Source of the DNA: a virus
Length of the DNA: 20,341 nt
Strand: one strand, 5' to 3'
IMG/VR virus record: IMGVR_UViG_3300029923_000124
Span: 1 to 20,341 of that record
The position numbers were made by a program, and so were the translations under genes. This document shows, piece by piece, positions 400 to 18,347 of this stretch (within the stretch, counting starts at the first letter, position 1; each line of letters opens with the position of its first letter). The notes under the pieces are model-generated. The model searched no databases and was not told the DNA's origin. It saw only the letters and a list, made by a program, of their open reading frames with translations.

Positions 400-807
400 A
401 TGTCAACTAAAGTAAAGAAAAAGAAGTCACTACTGCCTGACTTGTCCAAGATGGATATCCTAAAGCCATTATCAATTACTGATATAGGGTCTAATGGTGA
501 TCCATGCTTTGGTAAGGCTTATGATCTGTCAACTAAAGAATGTAAGATGTGTGGAGATTCTGAATTATGTGCAATAGTATTTGCCCAGACAATGAATACC
601 ACAAGAGGTGAAATTGAGAAGGAAAAACATTTCAAGGACATGGATGTATTAATTGATATTCCAGGTGTAAAAAAATACATGAGGAAATTGAAGCGTACGG
701 GGTATATTAAGAAGGATATTATTACAATGTCCATGGCTAAGTTTGAAATAGCTAAATCAGATACAAGGGATATATATAGAAGTTTAAACAATTTAAAAGA
801 AGAGTAA
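400..807 (+). CDS. Unrecognised 135-aa protein with four-cysteine (zinc-ribbon-like) motif
   Basis: I do not recognise a named family. The N-terminus is Lys-rich (MSTKVKKKKS). A compact cysteine cluster follows: C36, C48, C51 and C57, in the segment DPCFGKAYDLSTKECKMCG and on to SELC. The spacing C-x11-C-x2-C-x5-C could bind one zinc ion. The C-terminal half is helical and charged, with no membrane segment. The ATG at 400 follows a typical A-rich leader of this genome. The stop overlaps the next gene's start as TAATG. Position between a helicase and nucleotide-metabolism genes suggests a DNA-related role, but that is only context. Confidence 0.8.
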   Translation: MSTKVKKKKSLLPDLSKMDILKPLSITDIGSNGDPCFGKAYDLSTKECKMCGDSELCAIVFAQTMNTTRGEIEKEKHFKDMDVLIDIPGVKKYMRKLKRTGYIKKDIITMSMAKFEIAKSDTRDIYRSLNNLKEE

Positions 808-1313
808 TGGATGATAATATACCAGGCTTCCCAGGTTACCATATAGCTAGAGGTGGGAAGTTATACAATAGGGGAAAGCCAAAACCAACGTATGTTCATA
901 AGAATGGGTACTTAAGGTCTAGGTTAAGAAATGAAAAAGGTAAAACTTATAACAAAACTATACATAGGCTAGTTGCCATAGCTTGGGTACCAAATCCAAA
1001 GCCTGGTATATATAATACTGTATTACATAATGATAATATAAGGTTACACAACTTTGATACAAACTTACACTGGGGTACACAACAGGAAAATATAGACCAG
1101 GCTATAAAAGATGGTATCATGAATGTAAAGGGTAAGAATAATCCCATGTATGGTGTACACAGAGATTGTAGGGGTAAAGTAAACAAAACCTTATCAGGTA
1201 ATAAGAAAACTCAGGTAAGGGGATTATACAAAACAGGAAACTATAAACTTACTGAGTTAGCAAAAAAGTTTTCAGTAGGAACTAAGAATATAAAACGAAT
1301 TATAAACATTTAA
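807..1313 (+). CDS. Free-standing HNH homing endonuclease (NUMOD4/HNH_3 type)
   Basis: The 168-aa protein has the order usual for phage homing endonucleases. A NUMOD4-like start (IPGFPGYHIARGGKLYNRGK) is followed by an HNH core containing IHRLVAIAW (H53), VLHNDN (H74, N75) and NLHWGTQQEN near 86-95. A NUMOD3-like GKNNPMYG lies near 109-116, and a C-terminal helix-turn-helix-like segment (LTELAKKFSVGTKNIKRI) would contact DNA. Such enzymes nick or cut a recipient genome near their own insertion site and spread by repair. The gene starts inside the stop of the previous gene (TAATG) and ends 11 bases before the next frame. No interrupted gene or intron boundary is evident around it, so it looks like an intergenic insertion. 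Confidence 0.85.
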   Translation: MDDNIPGFPGYHIARGGKLYNRGKPKPTYVHKNGYLRSRLRNEKGKTYNKTIHRLVAIAWVPNPKPGIYNTVLHNDNIRLHNFDTNLHWGTQQENIDQAIKDGIMNVKGKNNPMYGVHRDCRGKVNKTLSGNKKTQVRGLYKTGNYKLTELAKKFSVGTKNIKRIINI

Positions 1314-1324
1314 AACTTAACATT

Positions 1325-2197
1325 TTGGACATAAGAGATGTAAAAGAAGAACCACAAGTAGTAGAAGGTGGGATGTATTTAGAAAAGATTTATGAGTTAC
1401 AAAAGGTATTGGTAGACCACTATGTAAAAATTGAAGGCCTACCACCTTACCCAATTAGTGTAAACACAAAACCCAGCCAGATAATCCTGAAGGATTTTAC
1501 GGGTAGGGTAATTGAAGAACTTGCTGAAGGGTTTGAATCTCACCTATTGATTGATGAATTAACAAGTAACAACCTTTATTGGAGTGATGAGGATGGGAGT
1601 TCTAATGATTATCAACAAATGGTAAACCACCTTCAGAACTTAAATGAAGAACAGGCAGATGCAATGCATTTCATGACTGAGTTAATGATCTATTGCAACA
1701 TTCAACCAGATGATATCCAAGCTTGGATTGATGCTTATGTAAAGAAGTACAATTTTAATAGTATAAATGCTGGTGCTCCTTATGTTGGTACCGATGGTGA
1801 TGTAATAGCTAATGCTATAGAATTAGGCTATGCTATATTTGAAGGTGATTTAACTCTTAGTAGGGAAGGTGTTAACTTGGTTAAATACATTGATGAAGTA
1901 AAACTTAAGTATCTACCTGGGGCAAGATACCTATCAATGGAATTGATGGAGTTATCTGAAAAATTGCTTTGGAGAGTTACCTACCATATCAACATTTCAA
2001 GGAACTGTTTGAAAAACAAACCCTGGAAACAGTCTGGTGTTATGACTGATGAAACTCTATACCAATCTAAAGTAGTTGAAGCATTTGTATACATGATGAC
2101 TTACTTTGGGTTTATTGGTATGGGAAGCAAGGAGATATACTACTTGTACTTCAAGAAGAATATGGTTAATCAATTCCGTATTAAATCAAACTATTAA
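1325..2197 (+). CDS. dUTPase-like all-alpha NTP pyrophosphohydrolase
   Basis: The helical protein carries marks of the dimeric dUTPase/MazG superfamily, which hydrolyses dUTP to dUMP with Mg2+. A first helix (LEKIYELQKVLVDHY) precedes the metal-binding E-E-x-x-E pattern in VIEELAEGFES (E64, E65, E68). A second acidic pair lies in EEQADAMHFMTEL (D112, H115, E119). The ending YFKKNMVNQFRIKSNY matches the K-N-x-x-N-x-F-R nucleotide-binding ending of dimeric dUTPases. The product, dUMP, is a possible substrate for the thymidylate synthase-fold proteins encoded next. The frame opens with TTG at 1325; the first ATG is at 1373, which still precedes the first conserved helix, so the true start is uncertain. 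The stop overlaps the next ATG as TAATG. Confidence 0.65.
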   Translation: MDIRDVKEEPQVVEGGMYLEKIYELQKVLVDHYVKIEGLPPYPISVNTKPSQIILKDFTGRVIEELAEGFESHLLIDELTSNNLYWSDEDGSSNDYQQMVNHLQNLNEEQADAMHFMTELMIYCNIQPDDIQAWIDAYVKKYNFNSINAGAPYVGTDGDVIANAIELGYAIFEGDLTLSREGVNLVKYIDEVKLKYLPGARYLSMELMELSEKLLWRVTYHINISRNCLKNKPWKQSGVMTDETLYQSKVVEAFVYMMTYFGFIGMGSKEIYYLYFKKNMVNQFRIKSNY

Positions 2198-3126
2198 TGG
2201 GCAAGGTATCTGGCTCAATCCAAGAAAAATGCCACAACTTGGAATTTGCAACCTCCCAGGAAGCTTGGGAAGGTTTAAATGAAATGTTCATATACCATGA
2301 TAAAAGGTTATTTAAACATGGAGCATCATTTACATCGGGTATGTCTGCTGTATATAACATATTCATAAAGATAAGGAAAGCTTGGGTAGACCCAGAATTC
2401 GATTATGGTTTAATGTTTAATTACAGGGAACAGAAATGGACCACTCTAGTGAATAATTATTTAAACTTAAATAAACTAGACCTACTTAGGTCTAAAGTTC
2501 GCTACTTCCAGTCTAAGTATAACCAAAACTATAATATATCTTACTCATTTGATAACTCCCATGATAATGGGAAAGGTTGTTTATTAGCTGCAACATTTTC
2601 AAGGAGATTAAATGATGACATCCCAGTTATAACTGTAATGTTAAGGTCATCAGAGATAACTAAAAGGTTAATATTTGATCTCCTATTAGTACAAAGGATG
2701 GCAGAATATGTATATGGTAAAGAAGTAACCTGCATGATAAATATATTTGCAACTCAAATGTATTGCAATACAGAAACACTGGTAATGTATAATACTCATA
2801 GGCCACTTGCTGATGTACTTGAAGAAAACAAAAAGAAGTGGATGTCAAAGGGTATAGCAAAAGATTCATGGCCTGAAAGTTTATTAAAAACATTCAATAC
2901 CTTCATGGATAAACCTGAATCATTTGGGAGTTATAAGGTTTTCTTAAGAACTGCAAAATGCTTAAGACCTGATTATTACAAGGGGCACTATAAACCTTTA
3001 ATTGCAGTTAATATGGTTTTAGAATATGATGAGGGCATTGAATACCCCGAAACCGTCATAAGCTTCTCACAAAGAAAAGCATACAAAAAGAAACATAACA
3101 AACAACTTAAAAAACTAGTAGTATGA
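2197..3126 (+). CDS. Divergent thymidylate synthase-fold protein (paralogue A)
   Basis: This 309-aa protein is a distant thymidylate synthase (TS) relative, recognised by aligning with the E. coli enzyme by eye. C128 in GKGCLLAATF sits at the catalytic Cys146 position. R150-S151-S152-E153 matches the RSCD phosphate-binding motif, and D161 in RLIFD falls, with no gap, on Asn177. Y189 in QMYCN matches Tyr209, but the partner His207 is Gln (Q187). The two arginines that reach across the TS dimer (126/127) appear to be Asn and Tyr here. It overlaps by four bases (ATGA) with a second, better conserved TS-fold gene. It could be a dCMP or dUMP hydroxymethylase, a regulatory subunit, or a pseudoenzyme. 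Residues 201-309 form a longer C-terminal region than TS normally has. Confidence 0.55.
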   Translation: MGKVSGSIQEKCHNLEFATSQEAWEGLNEMFIYHDKRLFKHGASFTSGMSAVYNIFIKIRKAWVDPEFDYGLMFNYREQKWTTLVNNYLNLNKLDLLRSKVRYFQSKYNQNYNISYSFDNSHDNGKGCLLAATFSRRLNDDIPVITVMLRSSEITKRLIFDLLLVQRMAEYVYGKEVTCMINIFATQMYCNTETLVMYNTHRPLADVLEENKKKWMSKGIAKDSWPESLLKTFNTFMDKPESFGSYKVFLRTAKCLRPDYYKGHYKPLIAVNMVLEYDEGIEYPETVISFSQRKAYKKKHNKQLKKLVV

Positions 3127-3884
3127 GGATTTACGCAAACGCTTACGAGTTAATGTCAGAAACTGGCAGAAACTTATGGGAAATGGGTGCAGAGGTTAAA
3201 CCTAAAACTTATCAAGATAAGGTAATTGAGGGTGATGACAACTTTATTACAAAAGAACTTATCTGTGAACAGTATTGTTTAACTGACTTACCAGATGAGG
3301 ATTTATTATTCTTATTTGACCCACGTTCTAAGGACTGGACAAAGGCAGAATTTGTTGAAAGGGTATCAATTGGTAAAAGCCAAAATCCTGGGGAAGCCTA
3401 TAAACTTAGGCCAGATCTTTGGGAGCAATTCATAAACAGTAGAGGGAAGTTCGACTACAACTATAATGACCGGATGAGGTATGAAAAAGCCTTGTTTAGC
3501 AGATTAGAGCTGGATAACTTGTCTATAGTAATAAAGCAACTAATGTTTGACCACCAGACAAGGAAGGCAGTATTACCAATCTACACCCTAGATGATGTAT
3601 CCAAGATACCAGAGGGCAAAAGGATACCTTGTTCAATGTATTATGACTTCTTAGTAAGGGAAGTAAATGGTGAAGAACAATTAAACATAACCTACCACCA
3701 AAGGTCTGCAGATTATGTTACCCACTTTGGTAATGATGTATTCCTTGCCTGGAAACTAATGCAATATGTTGCTTCACTGATAAAAGTTAAACCAGGGTAC
3801 CTATACCATACCATAGATTCACTACACAGTTACAAAAAAGACTGGGTAAAACTTAAAACATCAGTAGGAGACTTCAAAAAATAA
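3123..3884 (+). CDS. Thymidylate synthase-fold enzyme, possible dCMP hydroxymethylase (paralogue B)
   Basis: The 253-aa protein aligns with E. coli thymidylate synthase (264 aa) over its core. LDNLSIVIKQL matches IDQITTVLNQL, and TRKAV gives the cross-dimer arginine region (R147, K148). C170 in RIPC is the catalytic cysteine. QRSAD (R194, S195, D197) is the phosphate loop, and H235-x-Y237 falls exactly on His207 and Tyr209. At the position of Asn177, which selects uracil over cytosine, it has D205. Asp there is the known feature of T4 dCMP hydroxymethylase, so a cytosine substrate is plausible. The reaction would transfer a one-carbon unit from methylene-tetrahydrofolate to C5 of the dNMP. 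The upstream paralogue and dUTPase are in the same operon. An ordinary thymidylate synthase role cannot be excluded. Confidence 0.72.
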   Translation: MRIYANAYELMSETGRNLWEMGAEVKPKTYQDKVIEGDDNFITKELICEQYCLTDLPDEDLLFLFDPRSKDWTKAEFVERVSIGKSQNPGEAYKLRPDLWEQFINSRGKFDYNYNDRMRYEKALFSRLELDNLSIVIKQLMFDHQTRKAVLPIYTLDDVSKIPEGKRIPCSMYYDFLVREVNGEEQLNITYHQRSADYVTHFGNDVFLAWKLMQYVASLIKVKPGYLYHTIDSLHSYKKDWVKLKTSVGDFKK

Positions 3885-3898
3885 TACTACTAACCTGT

Positions 3899-3926
3899 AA
3901 TGGGAGGACTTAATTGTTCTCCCATT
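3899..3926 (+). terminator. Hairpin before the DNA polymerase gene
   Basis: AATGGGAG at 3899-3906 pairs with CTCCCATT at 3919-3926, and the stem can extend inward with one G-U pair to a TTAATT loop. No T-run follows, so it is either a weak intrinsic terminator or an RNA-processing or translation signal. It lies 16 bases before the preferred polymerase start at 3942. Confidence 0.5.
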
Positions 3927-3941
3927 CGTCACCTTATAAAC

Positions 3942-6221
3942 ATGATATCAAGGTACCACATAATAAAGAATTTTAAAGAACTTAAACTACTTGTAAAAGC
4001 TTGCAAGGAAACTAAGTATGCAAGCTTTGACTTTGAATCTAATGCTAAAAGCATATACTCTGATGAGTTCTACCCTACTATACTATCCGTATCATTTCAA
4101 GTAGGTTCTTCAGTTATATTACCACTAGCTCATTTTGATTCACCATTCTTATCAGGTAAAAATAAACCAACCTGGCTTAAGATGTTAGAATACTTTGGTA
4201 GACATGTAATTGAGAATCCAGATATAACTAAGGTAGCATGGAATTGGAAGTTTGATAATCAGATAATGGCAAGGTACAACATCTGGCATAAGGGTAGAGC
4301 CTTAGATGGTATGCTTGCAAAATATCTCCTGGATGAGGAAAGGCCAATGGGTTTAAAAGATATGGTAAAAAGGTATCTACCTGAATTTTCAGGCTATGAA
4401 AATTATGAAGGTAGTAAATTGCCATGGGATAAAAAACCTTTAGAGGGGTTAAGTAAATATAGTGGACAAGATTCTGACTGTACCTTACGACTTATGCTAT
4501 TCTTTGAAAAGAAACTCATTGACTTAGGCTTCTATAGTTTATATAGAAATTTAATTATGATGGCTAGCAGAGTACTGGAGGATGCTGAAAGAAATGGTAT
4601 GAAGCTTGATATTGAACTAAATCATGAACTTGGTATTAAATATGATGCATTAACAGAAGAGGCCCAAAAGAAACTTAGGGAGATGTCAAGGGTTATGAAG
4701 TTTGAAAAGGCTTTAATAAAAGACAGGAGGGAAGCTTATATATCAAAGATAGAGGATGAAATTGAAGCTATAAATAATGAGATTGAAGAACTTGATGACC
4801 AAAAGAAAATCAATGCAGCTAATAAAAAGATTGATTCCAGGGAGGAAAAAATAAGCAGGTTAACAGTTGGTGACTTTAGAACTAATGATGAAAAGAAACT
4901 TATAGAGCCAATTAACTTTGGTTCACCATTAGTAATGGGGGCTTTACTTTACACCCATAAAAAAGGGTTTAAATTCCCCATACAAAACTATACTGATAAA
5001 GGTGCACCATCTACAGCTGAAGAGGATATACTAAAACTAAAGGATTATGATAAACATGGTTTTATAGATGGGCTTATAGAGTTAAGGGGGTTCCAAACCA
5101 TTAATTCCACATTTGTAAAAGGTATTGGTGAAAAGGTTGGATCAGATGGTAGGATTCACCCTAAGTTTAATATACATGGAACAACTACAGGAAGGCTTAG
5201 TTCTAACGACCCAAATTTTCAAAATCTCCCAAGGGTTACAACCAACGAGGATATTAAAAGGATGATGATACCAGGTGAAGGCAAGATATTCATCATGCTC
5301 GATTATTCTCAGGCTGAGTTAAGGGTACTTGCTCATCTTGCAAAAGAAGAAACCATGCTTATGTGGTTTAGAACTGGTAGGGATATTCACCTTGCTACAG
5401 CTTGTAAGAAATACAAAACTGATTATGAGGAAACACTTGTAATATATAAGGATGAACAACACCCCGAATATAAAACGTGGAAGAAGAGAAGAAAACAAGC
5501 TAAGACAATTAATTTTGGTATAGCTTATGAACAAACTGCTATGAAGTTATCTGAGTCACTATCTGAGCCAGGTGCACCAGTTTCAATTGAAGAAGCTCAG
5601 GTTGAGTTAGATGCTTGGTTTTTAGAATTTCCAAAGGTAAAGAAATTTATTGAAAAACAACATAGGTTTGCAGAGAAACATGGTTGGGTTAAAACAATGT
5701 TTGGTAGGAAGAGAAGGTTACCCGGAGTATATAGTGAAGTATATAGAGAATATCTAGAGGCATTAAGATTTGCATCTAATTCACCTATTCAGGGAACTGC
5801 TACTGACTTTGCACTATTCTCATCCATATTAATATGGGAAAAGATTAAACTAGGTGAGTTACCAAGAATACATGAAAACACAACAGTACATGACTCCATT
5901 GTATATGAGGCAGATCCTAAGGATGTAACTCCATTCTTAATCCATGCACTATGGTCAATATGCAAGAACCCAAGTACTAAACAGTACTTTGGCTTCCAAA
6001 TTGATGACGTTGAGATGGATGCTGACTTTGGGGTTGGAAGAAACTATGGTGAAGAATTGCCCTTTGTACCAGGCTATGACTATACTAATCTACTATCAAA
6101 AGACTTCAATAAAGATGATTATTACAAGGAATTTAATAAAGTACGGGACATCCCTTATTCAGATTTTCCAATTAAGTTCAATGATAACTTTAATAAAAGT
6201 AAAGCCCTATATGCAAGATAA
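3942..6221 (+). CDS. Family A DNA polymerase with 3'-5' exonuclease domain
   Basis: The replicative polymerase (759 aa from 3942) has an active-looking proofreading domain: ExoI SFDFES (D30, E32), ExoII WNWKFDNQ (D105) and ExoIII YSGQDSD (Y173, D177). The polymerase domain shows motif A LDYSQAELR (D454), motif B RKQAKTINFGIAY (K521, F525, Y529) and motif C TVHDS (D651). F525 corresponds to E. coli Phe762. There is no 5' nuclease domain; a separate FEN gene at 9129 supplies it. Residues about 240-320 form a charged helical insertion in the thumb. The frame also has an ATG at 3900, but that lies in a hairpin stem, its first 14 codons look non-coding, and the ATG at 3942 follows TATAAAC. The next gene starts 11 bases before this stop. 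Confidence 0.95.
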   Translation: MISRYHIIKNFKELKLLVKACKETKYASFDFESNAKSIYSDEFYPTILSVSFQVGSSVILPLAHFDSPFLSGKNKPTWLKMLEYFGRHVIENPDITKVAWNWKFDNQIMARYNIWHKGRALDGMLAKYLLDEERPMGLKDMVKRYLPEFSGYENYEGSKLPWDKKPLEGLSKYSGQDSDCTLRLMLFFEKKLIDLGFYSLYRNLIMMASRVLEDAERNGMKLDIELNHELGIKYDALTEEAQKKLREMSRVMKFEKALIKDRREAYISKIEDEIEAINNEIEELDDQKKINAANKKIDSREEKISRLTVGDFRTNDEKKLIEPINFGSPLVMGALLYTHKKGFKFPIQNYTDKGAPSTAEEDILKLKDYDKHGFIDGLIELRGFQTINSTFVKGIGEKVGSDGRIHPKFNIHGTTTGRLSSNDPNFQNLPRVTTNEDIKRMMIPGEGKIFIMLDYSQAELRVLAHLAKEETMLMWFRTGRDIHLATACKKYKTDYEETLVIYKDEQHPEYKTWKKRRKQAKTINFGIAYEQTAMKLSESLSEPGAPVSIEEAQVELDAWFLEFPKVKKFIEKQHRFAEKHGWVKTMFGRKRRLPGVYSEVYREYLEALRFASNSPIQGTATDFALFSSILIWEKIKLGELPRIHENTTVHDSIVYEADPKDVTPFLIHALWSICKNPSTKQYFGFQIDDVEMDADFGVGRNYGEELPFVPGYDYTNLLSKDFNKDDYYKEFNKVRDIPYSDFPIKFNDNFNKSKALYAR

Positions 6222-6654
6222 AATAACACAAATCAGTAAGATTAAGCGGGATGTATTAACTGTACACTATAAGGGTGAGAAAATAAACATAAACATTTCC
6301 CAGGAATTATCCATAAGTGAAAATGTTATCAACTCTCAATTAAAAGAGAGTCCTTCTAGTTATGCATTCCTTTGTTTACTAAGAGATAAACAAGTAAAAC
6401 TCCGTGATACTCTAGAAAGGAGCAAGGATGTTGCCTATAGTGAAGCTTATATATATTATAAGGGGTCTGGTAGTGGCATTACCAATGAAACAGCACAACA
6501 TAAGGCTAACTCTAACCCCAAATATAAAAGCTTATATAAAAAATACCTAAGGGCAGTTAGTAAGGCAAGCAACTTTATTTCAATATGCAGGGCCTATGAG
6601 GGTAGGGAAAAGATATTACAAACAGTATCAGCTAATCTACGTAGAGAACACTAA
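6211..6654 (+). CDS. Small helical protein, possible UvsY-like recombination mediator
   Basis: The ATG at 6211 (MQDKITQISKIKRDV) overlaps the polymerase end by 11 bases; the open frame extends upstream inside the polymerase gene, but that part is a shadow. The 147-aa product is helical and charged, with a central stretch KLRDTLERSKDVAYSEAYIYY, a glycine/serine turn, and C-terminal helices ending in YEGREKILQTVSANLRRE. Length and layout resemble T4 UvsY (137 aa), which loads UvsX onto gp32-coated ssDNA. Both a UvsX-like and a gp32-like protein are encoded within 2 kb. The residue-level match is weak, so the assignment rests mostly on size, topology and context. It could instead be an unrelated replication accessory protein. 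Confidence 0.6.
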   Translation: MQDKITQISKIKRDVLTVHYKGEKININISQELSISENVINSQLKESPSSYAFLCLLRDKQVKLRDTLERSKDVAYSEAYIYYKGSGSGITNETAQHKANSNPKYKSLYKKYLRAVSKASNFISICRAYEGREKILQTVSANLRREH

Positions 6655-6677
6655 AGAATTTCTATAAACTATTAATA

Positions 6678-6684
6678 TATAAAC
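6678..6684 (+). promoter_or_regulatory. TATAAAC leader box upstream of the GroES-like gene
   Basis: TATAAAC followed by AAAAACATT ends 10 bases before the ATG at 6694, nearly identical to the leader at 385-399. No Shine-Dalgarno sequence is visible. Confidence 0.35.
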
Positions 6685-6693
6685 AAAAACATT

Positions 6694-7104
6694 ATGAATT
6701 TAGCAACAATGCTTGGCCAGTCTCTTATTTCAAAAGATACTGCAATGTTAATCAACAGTGAGTTATACAAAAGGGGTCAGGTAACTGAGAACCGGGTTAT
6801 AATCATTACACCTAAAGAAATTGAGGGTAGGACTGCATCTGGTATAATCATACCCGGAGAAGTAACAGAAGGGGTACCAAGAAAGGGTATCTGTGTTCAA
6901 ATGGGAGAGTTCACTGAAGAGAATCGGACCTATACCTCTGTAGTTGGGATTGGTAATGTACTTACCTATGGCTTATATGCTGGTAAGGAAATTGATCTAC
7001 TAGAACCCCTATTAGTAAAAGGTTTTAACCCTGACAAACATGAACTAAGGTGTATATCAGTTAATGAGATTATGTATTCTGAGTATCCAATTAAACTAAC
7101 ATAA
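6694..7104 (+). CDS. GroES-like co-chaperonin
   Basis: The 136-aa protein fits the GroES/Cpn10 fold, as in T4 gp31, which caps host GroEL to fold phage proteins. NRVIIITPKEIEG (33-45) is the first strand. TASGIIIPGE (47-56) looks like the mobile loop, whose hydrophobic tripeptide binds GroEL (compare GGIVL in GroES). GICVQMGE, then VGIGNVLTYGLYAGKEI (84-100) and LRCISVNEIM (118-127), match the later strands, including the G-D/N-V-L pattern and the closing ILxxNDI-like strand. About 30 extra N-terminal residues and a longer central loop distinguish it from the ~97-aa bacterial protein. It lies between replication genes rather than capsid genes. The A-rich leader before 6694 supports the start. 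Confidence 0.78.
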   Translation: MNLATMLGQSLISKDTAMLINSELYKRGQVTENRVIIITPKEIEGRTASGIIIPGEVTEGVPRKGICVQMGEFTEENRTYTSVVGIGNVLTYGLYAGKEIDLLEPLLVKGFNPDKHELRCISVNEIMYSEYPIKLT

Positions 7105-7116
7105 TAAAGTAAAGTC

Positions 7117-7917
7117 ATGAGAGCAGAGAAGGAAGACAAAACTAAAAAGAAGAAGTTATCTACAGGTGGTAAAACTGCCCGTGAGAAAATGATGGACCGG
7201 AAAAAAGACCTTGAAAAACGTAGTGCAGGTGGTGGATTCATATTCCCAAAAGTTGGTACAACAAGGCTACGCCTAAAGTCACCAGGTGATGATGAAGAAT
7301 TAGCCATTGAGGTAATTCAGTTCTACCTGGGTAAAGAATTGGGTGGTGTGGTATCCCCAGCAACATTTGATGAACCCTGTCCATTTATGGATAAGTACAA
7401 AGAACTAAAGGATTCAGATGATGATGATGACAAAGCATTAGCAAAACGTCTGGTACCTAAAAGGAAGTATGCAATTGGGTGTGACTCTTACAAGGACGAA
7501 AAGGGTAAAGAAGTTGATCAAACTGACAAAGCAGTACTTGTTGCAAGAGGTGCTTACCAGGACATTACTGAACTCTACCTTGATGAGGATGAGTGGGGGG
7601 ATATGACTGATAAAAAAGAAGGGTATGATATTAAAATTATCAGAACTGGGGTTGGCCAACTAGATACATCTTATTCTGTATCACCTTGCCAAAAGAAAGC
7701 ATTACCCAAAGACCGTTCAAATACTTGCGACCTTGAAAAAATTGTAAGGTCACAAATTCCTTCATTTGAGGAACTTGAGGATACACTTGCTAAGTTCTTA
7801 AACTCAGGTGAGGATGGGGATGCTCCAGCAAAAAAACCCAAGGATAGTAAATCCAGGGACAAGTTCAAAGAAGGTCTAAAGGACAAAAAGAAAAAGAAAA
7901 GAGTAAGAGATATTTAA
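7117..7917 (+). CDS. T4 gp32-like single-stranded DNA-binding protein
   Basis: The 266-aa protein has the plan of gp32-type SSBs. A basic N-terminal arm (residues 1-36, Lys/Arg-rich) could serve cooperative binding. An OB-fold core starts around FIFPKVGTTRLRLKSP. Then EPCPFMDKY (83-93) and a Lys/Arg patch LAKRLVPKRKYAIGC (108-122) resemble the gp32 Cys and Lys-rich binding region; a full zinc motif is not visible. GVGQLDTSYSVSP (178-190) matches the last core strands. Unlike gp32, the C-terminal tail is very basic (KDKKKKKRVRDI), while acidic runs lie inside (DSDDDDDK at 99-106 and ELYLDEDEWGD). The recombinase gene follows, as expected for a replication-recombination module. Assignment rests on motif order, not on close identity. 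Confidence 0.75.
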   Translation: MRAEKEDKTKKKKLSTGGKTAREKMMDRKKDLEKRSAGGGFIFPKVGTTRLRLKSPGDDEELAIEVIQFYLGKELGGVVSPATFDEPCPFMDKYKELKDSDDDDDKALAKRLVPKRKYAIGCDSYKDEKGKEVDQTDKAVLVARGAYQDITELYLDEDEWGDMTDKKEGYDIKIIRTGVGQLDTSYSVSPCQKKALPKDRSNTCDLEKIVRSQIPSFEELEDTLAKFLNSGEDGDAPAKKPKDSKSRDKFKEGLKDKKKKKRVRDI

Positions 7918-9148: not shown

Positions 9149-10037
9149 TTTATTAATAATTGATGGAGAAAATCTATTACACAGGGCATACCATAAGTTC
9201 TTAGGCTTCAAGTCTACTGAAGGAGTTCCAACTGGTGCAATATATGGTTTTCTAAAGATCCTACACTCTAATATATTTAGGTTCAAGCCTGAATATGTTA
9301 TTGTTACATTTGATAATGGCAGATCAAAACATAGGACTAACATACTTCCAGGTTATAAGACACGACCTAAAAAACTGGGTATGGATTATGAGTCATTACA
9401 AAAACAAAAAAAGTTGATAATGAAGATCCTTAGAAGGTTGGGAGTACCTTATGTATTTGATAAATCATTCAGTAATGAATGGGAGGCTGATGATTACATT
9501 GCTTACTTAGCTAAAACCTTTGAGGGTGAAGTAACTATACTATCCTCTGACAAAGATTTTCACCAACTGATATCTAAAAGGGTAAAGGTAATGAGCCCAT
9601 CTAAAGACCAATTAATCACTGAAGTTAATTGCATAAAGTTAACTGGGTATAATCCTGACCAATGTGTTGATTGGTTATCAATGGTGGGGGATGAATCCGA
9701 TAGCATACCCGGCTATAGAGGCATTGGAGAAGTAAAAGCTACTGCATTACTTAAGAAATATAACTGTATAGAGAAATTTATAATGGGCGATTACAAAGAA
9801 AGTAGGGTAAATAAGCAAACACTTAATGAAGTAATGACTAAGAATAGGCACCTTATTGATCTTAACTTCTTTATAAGAAAATACCCAATGGTAAAAAACA
9901 TACCCATAAAATATGGGAAGGATGAATTTATAAACAGGAAGCTAGTAACCATGTTTAATGGGTACTCTCTATCCTCATTCCAGTCTACTGAATTTATAAA
10001 CACCTTTAAAGAATTAAGCAAATGGAAAGTAAAGTAA
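9129..10037 (+). CDS. FEN/XPG-family 5'-3' exonuclease
   Basis: The roughly 300-aa protein is a free-standing 5' nuclease like T4 RNase H or the N-terminal domain of Pol I, which removes RNA primers and flaps. Metal-binding carboxylates appear in order: LIIDGENLLHRAYH (Asp), VTFDNGR, the NEWEADDYIAYLA cluster, and ILSSDKDFHQL. The helix-3-turn-helix follows in MVGDESDSIPGYRGIGEVKA, which grips the DNA duplex. It supplies the activity missing from the family A polymerase encoded upstream. The start may be 9129, 9135 or 9141; the first conserved residues follow all three, and 9135 has the best Shine-Dalgarno spacing. It overlaps the recombinase stop by 20 bases and the kinase gene start by 16, so translation is probably coupled. 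Confidence 0.92.
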   Translation: MRMKMNSLLIIDGENLLHRAYHKFLGFKSTEGVPTGAIYGFLKILHSNIFRFKPEYVIVTFDNGRSKHRTNILPGYKTRPKKLGMDYESLQKQKKLIMKILRRLGVPYVFDKSFSNEWEADDYIAYLAKTFEGEVTILSSDKDFHQLISKRVKVMSPSKDQLITEVNCIKLTGYNPDQCVDWLSMVGDESDSIPGYRGIGEVKATALLKKYNCIEKFIMGDYKESRVNKQTLNEVMTKNRHLIDLNFFIRKYPMVKNIPIKYGKDEFINRKLVTMFNGYSLSSFQSTEFINTFKELSKWKVK

Positions 10038-10672
10038 AACGTATTATGTTTGTGGGTCCCAGTGGGATAGGCAAGACCCACCTATCCAAGTTTATTGCAG
10101 ATAAATATGGTATACCATTCATAAGTGGTTCATACTCTGATATGGTACCATCAACTAAAGATCAAAGCCATGCTGATATGGTAAGCAAGGATTCAAAGGT
10201 AATTTATAATGAAGATTATAAGTTGCTATGGGCAAGGGCAAAGGTATACTTAGGCTATACTACTAAAGGTTTAAGTTTTGTAACCGACAGGTCATATATT
10301 GATAGCATTGCATATTTCATATACAAACTTTCAAAAGTAATACCCAAGTGTGAAATTGAAGGTTTTGAACATGCAGCAAAAATGCTATTATTCAGGGACT
10401 GTACCCACCTAATTGTAATGCAATGTACTGAATCAATGGTTGATACCTGGAGAGTTGAAAATAATGAAAAGAGGATATTAAATACATATTTCCAGTGGAT
10501 GGTATCTATGGTAATGATAGGAGTACTTAAAAGATTGGGCTTAAGAACTGGTAAATACTTTGGCCATACATACAGTTACATGCCAATGGGTATAAAAGTA
10601 CTTGTTTTAAATAACAGGAACATGGAGAATAACAAAGTACTAATCAGTAAATTCTTGGGCAATGTCAAATAA
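10022..10672 (+). CDS. P-loop nucleotide/nucleoside kinase-like protein
   Basis: The 216-aa protein begins with a strand and a clear Walker A, GPSGIGKTH (12-20). TDRSYIDSIAY near 88-98 resembles the D-R-S motif of deoxynucleoside and NadR-like kinases, where Asp/Arg hold the nucleoside and phosphate. LIVMQCTE (130-137) is the usual strand before the lid, and R144 and R151 could be lid arginines. Such kinases phosphorylate dNMPs or deoxynucleosides, or less often act as AAA-type ATPases. Context gives a use: a phage with dUTPase and two thymidylate synthase-fold proteins may need its own kinase to raise a normal or modified dNMP to dNDP. No substrate can be read from the sequence. It overlaps both neighbours (16 and 11 bases). 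Confidence 0.7.
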   Translation: MESKVKRIMFVGPSGIGKTHLSKFIADKYGIPFISGSYSDMVPSTKDQSHADMVSKDSKVIYNEDYKLLWARAKVYLGYTTKGLSFVTDRSYIDSIAYFIYKLSKVIPKCEIEGFEHAAKMLLFRDCTHLIVMQCTESMVDTWRVENNEKRILNTYFQWMVSMVMIGVLKRLGLRTGKYFGHTYSYMPMGIKVLVLNNRNMENNKVLISKFLGNVK

Positions 10673-17906: not shown

Positions 17907-18347
17907 ATGGCTAAGAAAGCAAAAGTAAAAGAAGTAACAGTAGAGTCTACAGAATTTTTAGGCGGTGGCCTTATCAAAATCACCATGTCGGATGGTTCAA
18001 TCATCTTTGCATTAACAATCACCCAGGAAGTTATCGACCTAATTGCACCGGAAGCTGATGATGATGATGACGATGATTCGGACGATGATGATGATGATGA
18101 TGACGATGATTCGGACGATGATGATGATGATGATGACGATGATTCGGACGATGATGATGATGACGAAGTCACTGCAGAATCACTTGCCGAAATGGATTAT
18201 GAAGAACTGGAAGATGTCTGCGATGACAAAGACCTTGACACTGATCCTGATGACTTCGATGAGGAAGAAGTTGAAAAACTCCGGTCTGCCATCGCAAAAG
18301 AACTGGGCATCAAACTTCCCAAGGCTGCCAAAAAAGGCAAAAAATAA
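17907..18347 (+). CDS. Poly-aspartate-linker protein with SAP-like C-terminal helices
   Basis: The 146-aa protein has three parts. Residues 1-50 form a small beta-type domain (VTVESTEFLGGGLIKITMSD, then GSIIFALTI). Residues 51-86 are almost pure Asp with single Ser residues. The C-terminal part, MDYEELEDVCDDKDLDTDPD and on to KLRSAIAKELGI, looks like a SAP/LEM-like helix-extended-helix and ends in a Lys-rich tail. The role is unknown. The long polyanion could mimic DNA, bind basic proteins, or be a flexible linker; the basic neighbour at 18471 is one candidate partner. Codon choice differs from upstream genes. The opposite strand has an open frame of poly-Ser, which is a by-product of the repeats. 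Confidence 0.8.
   Translation: MAKKAKVKEVTVESTEFLGGGLIKITMSDGSIIFALTITQEVIDLIAPEADDDDDDDSDDDDDDDDDDSDDDDDDDDDDSDDDDDDEVTAESLAEMDYEELEDVCDDKDLDTDPDDFDEEEVEKLRSAIAKELGIKLPKAAKKGKK
18057..18164 (+). repeat. 33-bp tandem repeat encoding the Asp/Ser run
   Basis: Two identical 33-bp units (18084-18116 and 18117-18149) are preceded by a 27-bp truncated unit (18057-18083) and followed by a partial one (18150-18164). Each full unit is GAT x6, GAC, GAT x2, TCG, GAC. All lengths are multiples of three, so unit gain or loss keeps the frame. Such repeats can change length by slippage. Confidence 0.95.

Follow-up and report, generated by a model that had tools for sequence, protein, structure and literature searches.

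The window, by which we mean the whole stretch of DNA analysed here, is a 20,341-base phage fragment, and all coordinates refer to it. At its centre of interest lies an operon-like run of genes for a pyrophosphatase, two proteins of the thymidylate synthase (TS) fold, here called TS1 and TS2, and a family A DNA polymerase (Table 1). The two TS-fold reading frames lie where the first-pass annotation had placed them; they overlap by 4 bases, and the stop codon of the pyrophosphatase overlaps the start of TS1, so that both junctions of TS1 are overlapping ones. Downstream of the polymerase follow genes for a GroES-like protein, SSB, RecA, a FEN-type nuclease, a P-loop kinase and SbcD/SbcC, the last of these names being assigned partly by inspection of the sequences.

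Table 1. Coordinates of the TS1-TS2 gene pair and of associated genes in the window.
Feature	Coordinates	Strand	Assignment
Pyrophosphatase, all-alpha	1325..2197	+	PF08761 dUTPase_2, a family that also contains T4 gp56 dCTPase/dUTPase
TS1, diverged thymidylate-synthase-fold protein, 309 aa	2197..3126	+	Profile alignment, predicted structure, conservation
TS2, putative cytosine-type thymidylate synthase homologue, 253 aa	3123..3884	+	PF00303, fold, residues
Family A DNA polymerase	3900..6221	+	Directly 3' of TS2; adjoins the pair in nearly all relatives
P-loop kinase-like protein	10022..10672	+	AAA_28; weak thymidylate-kinase match

TS2 is recognisable as a member of the superfamily by its Pfam match to PF00303 (1e-16) and by its AlphaFold model (pLDDT 93.9), whose best Foldseek match is MilA (1e-15). 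Its key residues are R147, C170-S171, R194-S195-x-D197, D205 and H235-x-Y237; D205 lies 11 residues after the arginine (Arg+11) and is followed by H235 and Y237 at distances of 30 and 32 residues, which are the spacings around the Asn177 site of the E. coli enzyme, as had been read by eye from the window alone. R147, C170, R194, S195, D197 and D205 are invariant in all 57 of a diverse set of TS2 homologues, H235 is kept in all 50 homologues of the set counted for it, and position 237 is Tyr or Phe; given this invariance, the residue matches are not due to chance. The residue that follows the catalytic cysteine, at the site of position 147, is Ser in 40 and Thr in 17 of the 57 homologues, and it is Thr in T4 gp42 and in Xp15. 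TS2 thus departs from canonical thymidylate synthases in having Asp for Asn177 and Ser or Thr for His147, and also in the absence of the C-terminal tail, the chain ending 18 residues after H235. E79, which is Glu in 56 of 57 homologues, lies in a helix of the predicted model that may correspond to the Glu58/60 helix of folate enzymes; Glu45 had been considered as the equivalent of Glu58 and was dropped, as the model places it in a strand.

These substitutions point to cytosine as the base recognised. Position 205 of TS2 aligns with Asp179 of T4 gp42, the determinant of cytosine choice in that enzyme (PMC6400193), which agrees with the earlier suggestion that Asp at this site favours cytosine in T4 dCMP hydroxymethylase; the same selector Asp is shared by MilA, BcmA and T4 dCMP hydroxymethylase, whereas uracil enzymes have Asn (PMC5175136). 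All 57 TS2 and all 92 TS1 proteins compared have this Asp at the Asn177 site. A profile built from the isolate-type TS2 has the TS mutant N229D as its best PDB sequence and the phage dCMP hydroxylase AfhB as the next. In the MetaGPA study, phage contigs with modified cytosine carried Asp177 and differed from unmodified ones at position 147, which was the second position that separated the two groups (PMC8670742). As to the sugar, Ser195 and Arg147 of TS2 are the invariant equivalents of the deoxyribose-type residues Ser167 and Arg126, unlike the ribose-type residues of the CMP 5-hydroxymethylase MilA of mildiomycin biosynthesis, which has Ala176 and Lys133 in their place (PMC5175136). MilA nevertheless shares the selector Asp and is the best structural match of TS1 as well as of TS2.

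TS1 is a strongly diverged TS relative that databases do not recognise: by single-sequence search the window protein has no match in Pfam, NCBIfam or the PDB, a match to PF00303 is likewise absent in 25 diverse members of the family, and PHROGs lists the family as of unknown function. Its AlphaFold model (pLDDT 90.8, from an alignment of 47 sequences) nonetheless has a TS fold, as does that of TS2. The first 13 Foldseek matches of TS1 in the PDB are all MilA, T4 dCMP hydroxymethylase or AfhB, with uracil-type thymidylate synthases appearing only after them; with E-values of 8e-5 to 3e-3, a probability of about 1.0 and modest TM-scores of 0.34-0.52, the modelled relation to the solved TS folds appears distant but specific, and TS1 is, as judged from its model, a TS-fold protein nearest the cytosine branch. 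Profile comparison also relates TS1 to TS2 once the families are drawn widely, a first comparison from narrow families having been weak: the profiles of TS1 and TS2 align in register with P of 1e-5 to 5e-5, compared with 0.04 or worse for twelve decoy families taken from these phages, and place C128, R150 and D161 of TS1 on C170, R194 and D205 of TS2. The TS1 HMM also picks up several TS2 proteins in HMMER, in the same register. The placement of D161 at the Asn177 site, boldly made by eye in the first-pass annotation, was therefore right, with profile alignment, HMMER, Foldseek and conservation in agreement.

Among the 92 TS1 relatives, C128 and D161 are invariant (92/92), with D161 at Arg+11, and R150 is conserved in 91. 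Only four columns reach at least 98% conservation, namely Tyr88, Cys128, Arg150 and Asp161; by alignment these correspond to the TS nucleophile, the phosphate-binding arginine and the base selector, joined by one tyrosine. No other observation speaks as strongly as this pattern for a functional TS1, be it an enzyme in its own right or a contributor to an active site. Other parts of the canonical site are missing. TS1 proteins have no His-x-Tyr pair, with mostly Gln or Asn at the place of His207 (Gln in the window protein); at the place of Ser167 they have mostly Ala or Ser; and, by alignment and topology, they show no conserved Glu in helix 78-88, where TS enzymes keep Glu58, and no conserved Arg at 109-113, so that the Arg126'/127' pair appears to be absent.

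The occurrence of two paralogues side by side, which had been called unusual, turns out to be the rule. In a search started from TS2, TS1 adjoins TS2 in 68 of 80 viral loci, and this linkage survives reordering, since in 10 of the 68 TS1 lies downstream of TS2. The order helicase, small ORF, pyrophosphatase, TS1, TS2, polymerase recurs in dozens of viral contigs and in two MAG contigs; some contigs of this order have two TS1 genes. The remaining 12 TS2 loci have no TS1 nearby: 4 lie where a contig or locus ends, one of them (L163) with a TS1 at another place on its contig, and 8 have no TS1 on the whole contig. At least 8 TS2 loci thus have flanks but no detectable TS1, and TS2 can therefore do without it there. 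The notion that an Asp-type TS always needs TS1 was rejected on the same account, as T4, Microbacterium phage Lahqtemish and the 8 viral contigs appear to lack TS1. No TS1-TS2 gene fusion was found among the viral loci and the matches of the TS1 profile; two candidate fusion ORFs proved to be TS2 proteins cross-scoring with that profile.

Cultured phages show the same association. TS2 was found in 104 isolate records at 1e-8, and tblastn with two TS1 queries returned 102 isolate records whose counts by genus match those of TS2 one to one; TS1 is also present in the two leftover kinds, a Desulfofustis phage and a human-gut phage, so that essentially all 104 TS2 isolate records carry it. The pair of the cultured phages is a distant form of that in the window; these phages include Pseudomonas phage PMBT14, Serratia phages Serbin and Opt-155, Yersinia phage P744, Brevundimonas phage Strzyga, 68 Gordonia records, Streptomyces phage KimJongPhill and Mycobacterium phages, among them Muddy. 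All isolates checked residue by residue have the Asp of TS2 at Arg+11 and, in TS1, the Cys, the Arg and the Asp at Arg+11. TS1 is mostly annotated in them as 'hypothetical protein' and rarely as 'pyrimidine hmase synthase'. The papers on Azira (PMC10353413) and Serbin (PMC6509536) assign the cluster to nucleotide metabolism or thymine synthesis and do not comment on TS1, and no paper on the TS1-TS2 pair was found in the open-licence literature.

The two genes are closely linked, and often the stop codon of one overlaps the start codon of the other. This would also be expected if TS1 were a non-catalytic partner in a TS1-TS2 heterodimer, needed for the folding or regulation of TS2, the more so as TS enzymes work as dimers in which active-site arginines are shared between subunits (PMC6400193). 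The invariance of Cys128 in 92/92 sequences would be surprising in a passive subunit, however, and TS2 occurs without TS1 in the contigs described above, with no fusion of the two genes seen; we consider this explanation unlikely.

The neighbouring genes are of a kind that would fit a cytosine pathway. The first-pass annotation had named a dUTPase in this region, and the enzyme upstream of TS1 does belong to PF08761; since that Pfam family covers both this protein and the T4 gp56 dCTPase, a dCTPase/dUTPase like gp56 is the better reading. A separate beta dUTPase is encoded just upstream in 7 of 9 related contigs, and dCTP is therefore the likely substrate of the alpha pyrophosphatase. ThyX is encoded on a 56-kb contig of the same phage with identical genes (G001), and in one relative a complete Asn-type ThyA gene lies between two TS1 genes, next to the pair. 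With ThyX or an Asn-type ThyA to supply thymine in those phages, TS2 would not be needed for dTMP and would be free to act on dCMP. An Asp-type TS is likewise combined with ThyX in phage Xp15, which differs in having a single annotated TS together with a carbamoyltransferase, and no TS1 among its annotated genes. The P-loop protein has weak kinase matches; it is a candidate kinase for modified dCMP by analogy to T4 gp1 and because of the 'thymidylate kinase' genes that lie beside the pair in isolates.

In the cultured phages of the Gordonia CT cluster, Muddy, PMBT14 and Serbin, the corresponding module reads kinase, pyrophosphohydrolase, hypothetical protein, 'thymidylate synthase', dCMP deaminase, DNA polymerase I. 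It has the gene pair in the same order as the window, with TS1 and TS2 homologous by profile and all key residues present, but it is annotated as thymine synthesis and includes a dCMP deaminase, which was not found in the contig of the window phage. In surrounding the pair with genes for a kinase, a pyrophosphatase and a dCMP deaminase, these phages show the sort of company that MetaGPA linked to modified cytosine (PMC8670742). No glycosyltransferase or other hypermodification gene is present among the Pfam matches of the 44 proteins on the 56-kb contig, which is incomplete. A divergent C5-cytosine methylase homologue, on the other hand, is encoded in 5 of the 9 contigs examined, including all four over 60 kb, and the phage of the window has such a homologue; in two phages without TS1 it lies directly upstream of TS2. 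Its substrate may be the modified base, and its presence in the phage of the window is hard to reconcile with a complete replacement of cytosine.

These considerations make it likely that the genes in the window form the central part of a T4-like pathway to C5-modified dCMP for the phage DNA, in which TS1 is a second TS-fold protein. The dCMP route of TS2 in particular, anticipated in the first-pass annotation, appears well supported because the selector Asp is present in every homologue, Ser or Thr (a feature not mentioned there) follows the catalytic Cys, a member of the dCTPase family is encoded next to the pair, and the phage has ThyX. From the computed homology, fold, conservation and linkage we infer the substrates, the reaction, the order of the steps and the possible heteromer as follows. 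The pyrophosphatase would cut dCTP (and dUTP) to the monophosphate; Cys170 of TS2 would attack C6 of dCMP, with Asp205 holding N3 and N4 of the cytosine, and TS2 would substitute C5, most likely with a hydroxymethyl group derived from methylene-tetrahydrofolate, flavin-dependent hydroxylation or methylation being the alternatives at this step. The P-loop kinase would lift the product towards the triphosphate, to be used by the adjacent family A polymerase. TS1 probably binds the same or the already modified cytosine nucleotide covalently and performs a different step, since the 3'-OH-binding His, the arginines from the partner subunit and the acid of the folate helix are lost; it would do so as part of a heteromer with TS2, or else on its own as another enzyme of the route. 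The closest parallel is T4 gp42 with gp56, with which the system shares the TS fold, the Cys, the Asp at Arg+11, the Ser or Thr after the Cys, the dCTPase-family partner and a setting among replication genes; T4 differs in having one TS-fold cytosine enzyme together with glucosyltransferases, where we find a linked TS1 and see no glucosyltransferase.

5-Hydroxymethylcytosine is a possible product. TS-superfamily enzymes with this Asp yield 5-hydroxymethyl-dCMP (T4), 5-hydroxy-dCMP (AfhB; PMC13390438) or 5-methyl-dCMP, and sequence alone does not decide among hydroxymethyl, hydroxy and methyl products. Were the product hydroxylated, TS2 would be a dCMP 5-hydroxylase that uses flavin, comparable to AfhB from phage HY126 or to the RB69-type 5-hodCMP synthase, and the DNA would contain 5-hydroxycytosine, with TS1 helping to bind or reduce the flavin. 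The 5-hodCMP synthases belong to the TS superfamily (PMC13390438), and AfhB is the best PDB sequence relative of TS2 by profile (1.6e-11), its PDB entries being titled 'Monooxygenase dependent on riboflavin with dCMP and FAD' and 'dCMP hydroxylase-AfhB'. Both AfhB and TS2 are short phage TS-fold proteins with the Asp at Arg+11 that end soon after the His-x-Tyr/Phe motif. The better structural match, however, is the folate hydroxymethylase MilA, the nearly invariant Glu79 appears to lie in the counterpart of the Glu58/60 helix of folate enzymes, and a glycosyltransferase, usual in phages with 5-hydroxycytosine, was not found among the Pfam matches of the 56-kb contig, so that we think hydroxylation improbable. 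It is rather doubtful, too, that TS2 is a dCMP methylase that places 5-methylcytosine throughout the DNA, as in XP12: such 5mdC DNA exists (PMC8670742), and a single change of Asn to Asp converts TS to a dCMP methylase (cited in PMC8670742), but TS2 lacks the long C-terminal tail of E. coli TS, a trait that it has in common with AfhB and not with methylating TS. Least of all do we expect TS2 to be a diverged thymidylate synthase that makes dTMP, with TS1 an inactive paralogue or scaffold, even though it is so annotated in Gordonia, Mycobacterium and Serratia phages, the Azira and Serbin papers speak of thymine synthesis, and kinase, dUTPase and dCMP deaminase genes adjoin the pair in isolates: no TS2 member has the Asn177 and His147 that mark dUMP enzymes, some of the same genomes have ThyX or an Asn-type ThyA, and the catalytic Cys, Arg and Asp of TS1 are its best-conserved positions, unlike in a dead paralogue.

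Returning to the pathway to C5-modified dCMP, the TS1-TS2 pair reads, from its residues and its distribution, as a cytosine module of two proteins, widespread and with one TS-fold member that had gone unrecognised, rather than as an odd tandem. Tentatively, as an idea more plausible than probable, we propose further that TS1 represents an unrecognised active family of the TS fold that handles cytosine nucleotides covalently without the folate-activating Glu or the 3'-OH-binding His, and that the two proteins make up one enzyme of two components, possibly a heterodimer, which introduces a modification of cytosine, perhaps an undescribed one, into the DNA of more than 100 known phages, including Muddy and the Gordonia CT cluster.

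For the phages concerned, this means that the 'hypothetical protein' beside the 'thymidylate synthase' in more than 100 sequenced genomes would become a second TS-fold protein, and that clusters described as serving thymine synthesis would be re-read as cytosine-modification clusters. Altered cytosine may be present in the DNA of all phages with the pair; the prediction extends to well-studied phages, including Mycobacterium phage Muddy, which has been used therapeutically, and such a modification would matter for restriction and CRISPR as well as for how these phages are sequenced and engineered.

In one relative, three kinds of thymidylate-synthase-fold gene adjoin one another: TS1 (the diverged form), TS2 (the cytosine-type homologue) and a canonical ThyA with Asn at the base-selecting site (PF00303 match, 1e-78). 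Where TS1 itself is paired within a single phage, the paralogues are distinguished by the region of His207 (E. coli numbering), which is of Gln-x-Phe type in one and of Ser/Ala-x-Phe/Trp type in the other.

The site occupied in the window by an HNH/NUMOD homing-endonuclease-like gene carries a beta dUTPase in seven of nine related contigs; genes resembling this one are dispersed throughout the relatives. The polA adjoining TS2 is larger (1170-1421 aa) or split in several of them (L013, L019, L025, L006, L015, L016), probably through inteins or homing elements.

Among phages with TS2 and without TS1, two have a C5-cytosine methylase homologue immediately 5' of TS2, in the place of TS1; the genes that follow TS2 in L185 and L173 hint at further hypermodification in such phages.

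Coordinates of features in the window and in related viral loci (L) or the longer contig of the same phage (G001)
Feature	Location	Remarks
HNH/NUMOD homing-endonuclease-like gene	window 807-1313	
Short Asp-rich protein	window 17907-18347	long Asp runs interrupted by single Ser; built from repeated unit
TS1, Asn-type ThyA, TS1, TS2	L008:2667-6352 (L123:1086-4771)	consecutive genes
TS1 paralogue pairs	L010:7469-9372; L025:17182-19781; L027:18000-19767	
Divergent C5-cytosine methylase homologues	L181:2892-4001; L193:2910-3998; G001 6070-7149 (L030)	P-x-C-G and ENLP/DNLP motifs
Asparagine-synthase/amidotransferase, N6/N4-methylase-like gene, ThyX	L185:4693-8147; L173:4706-8187	directly after TS2; TS1 absent
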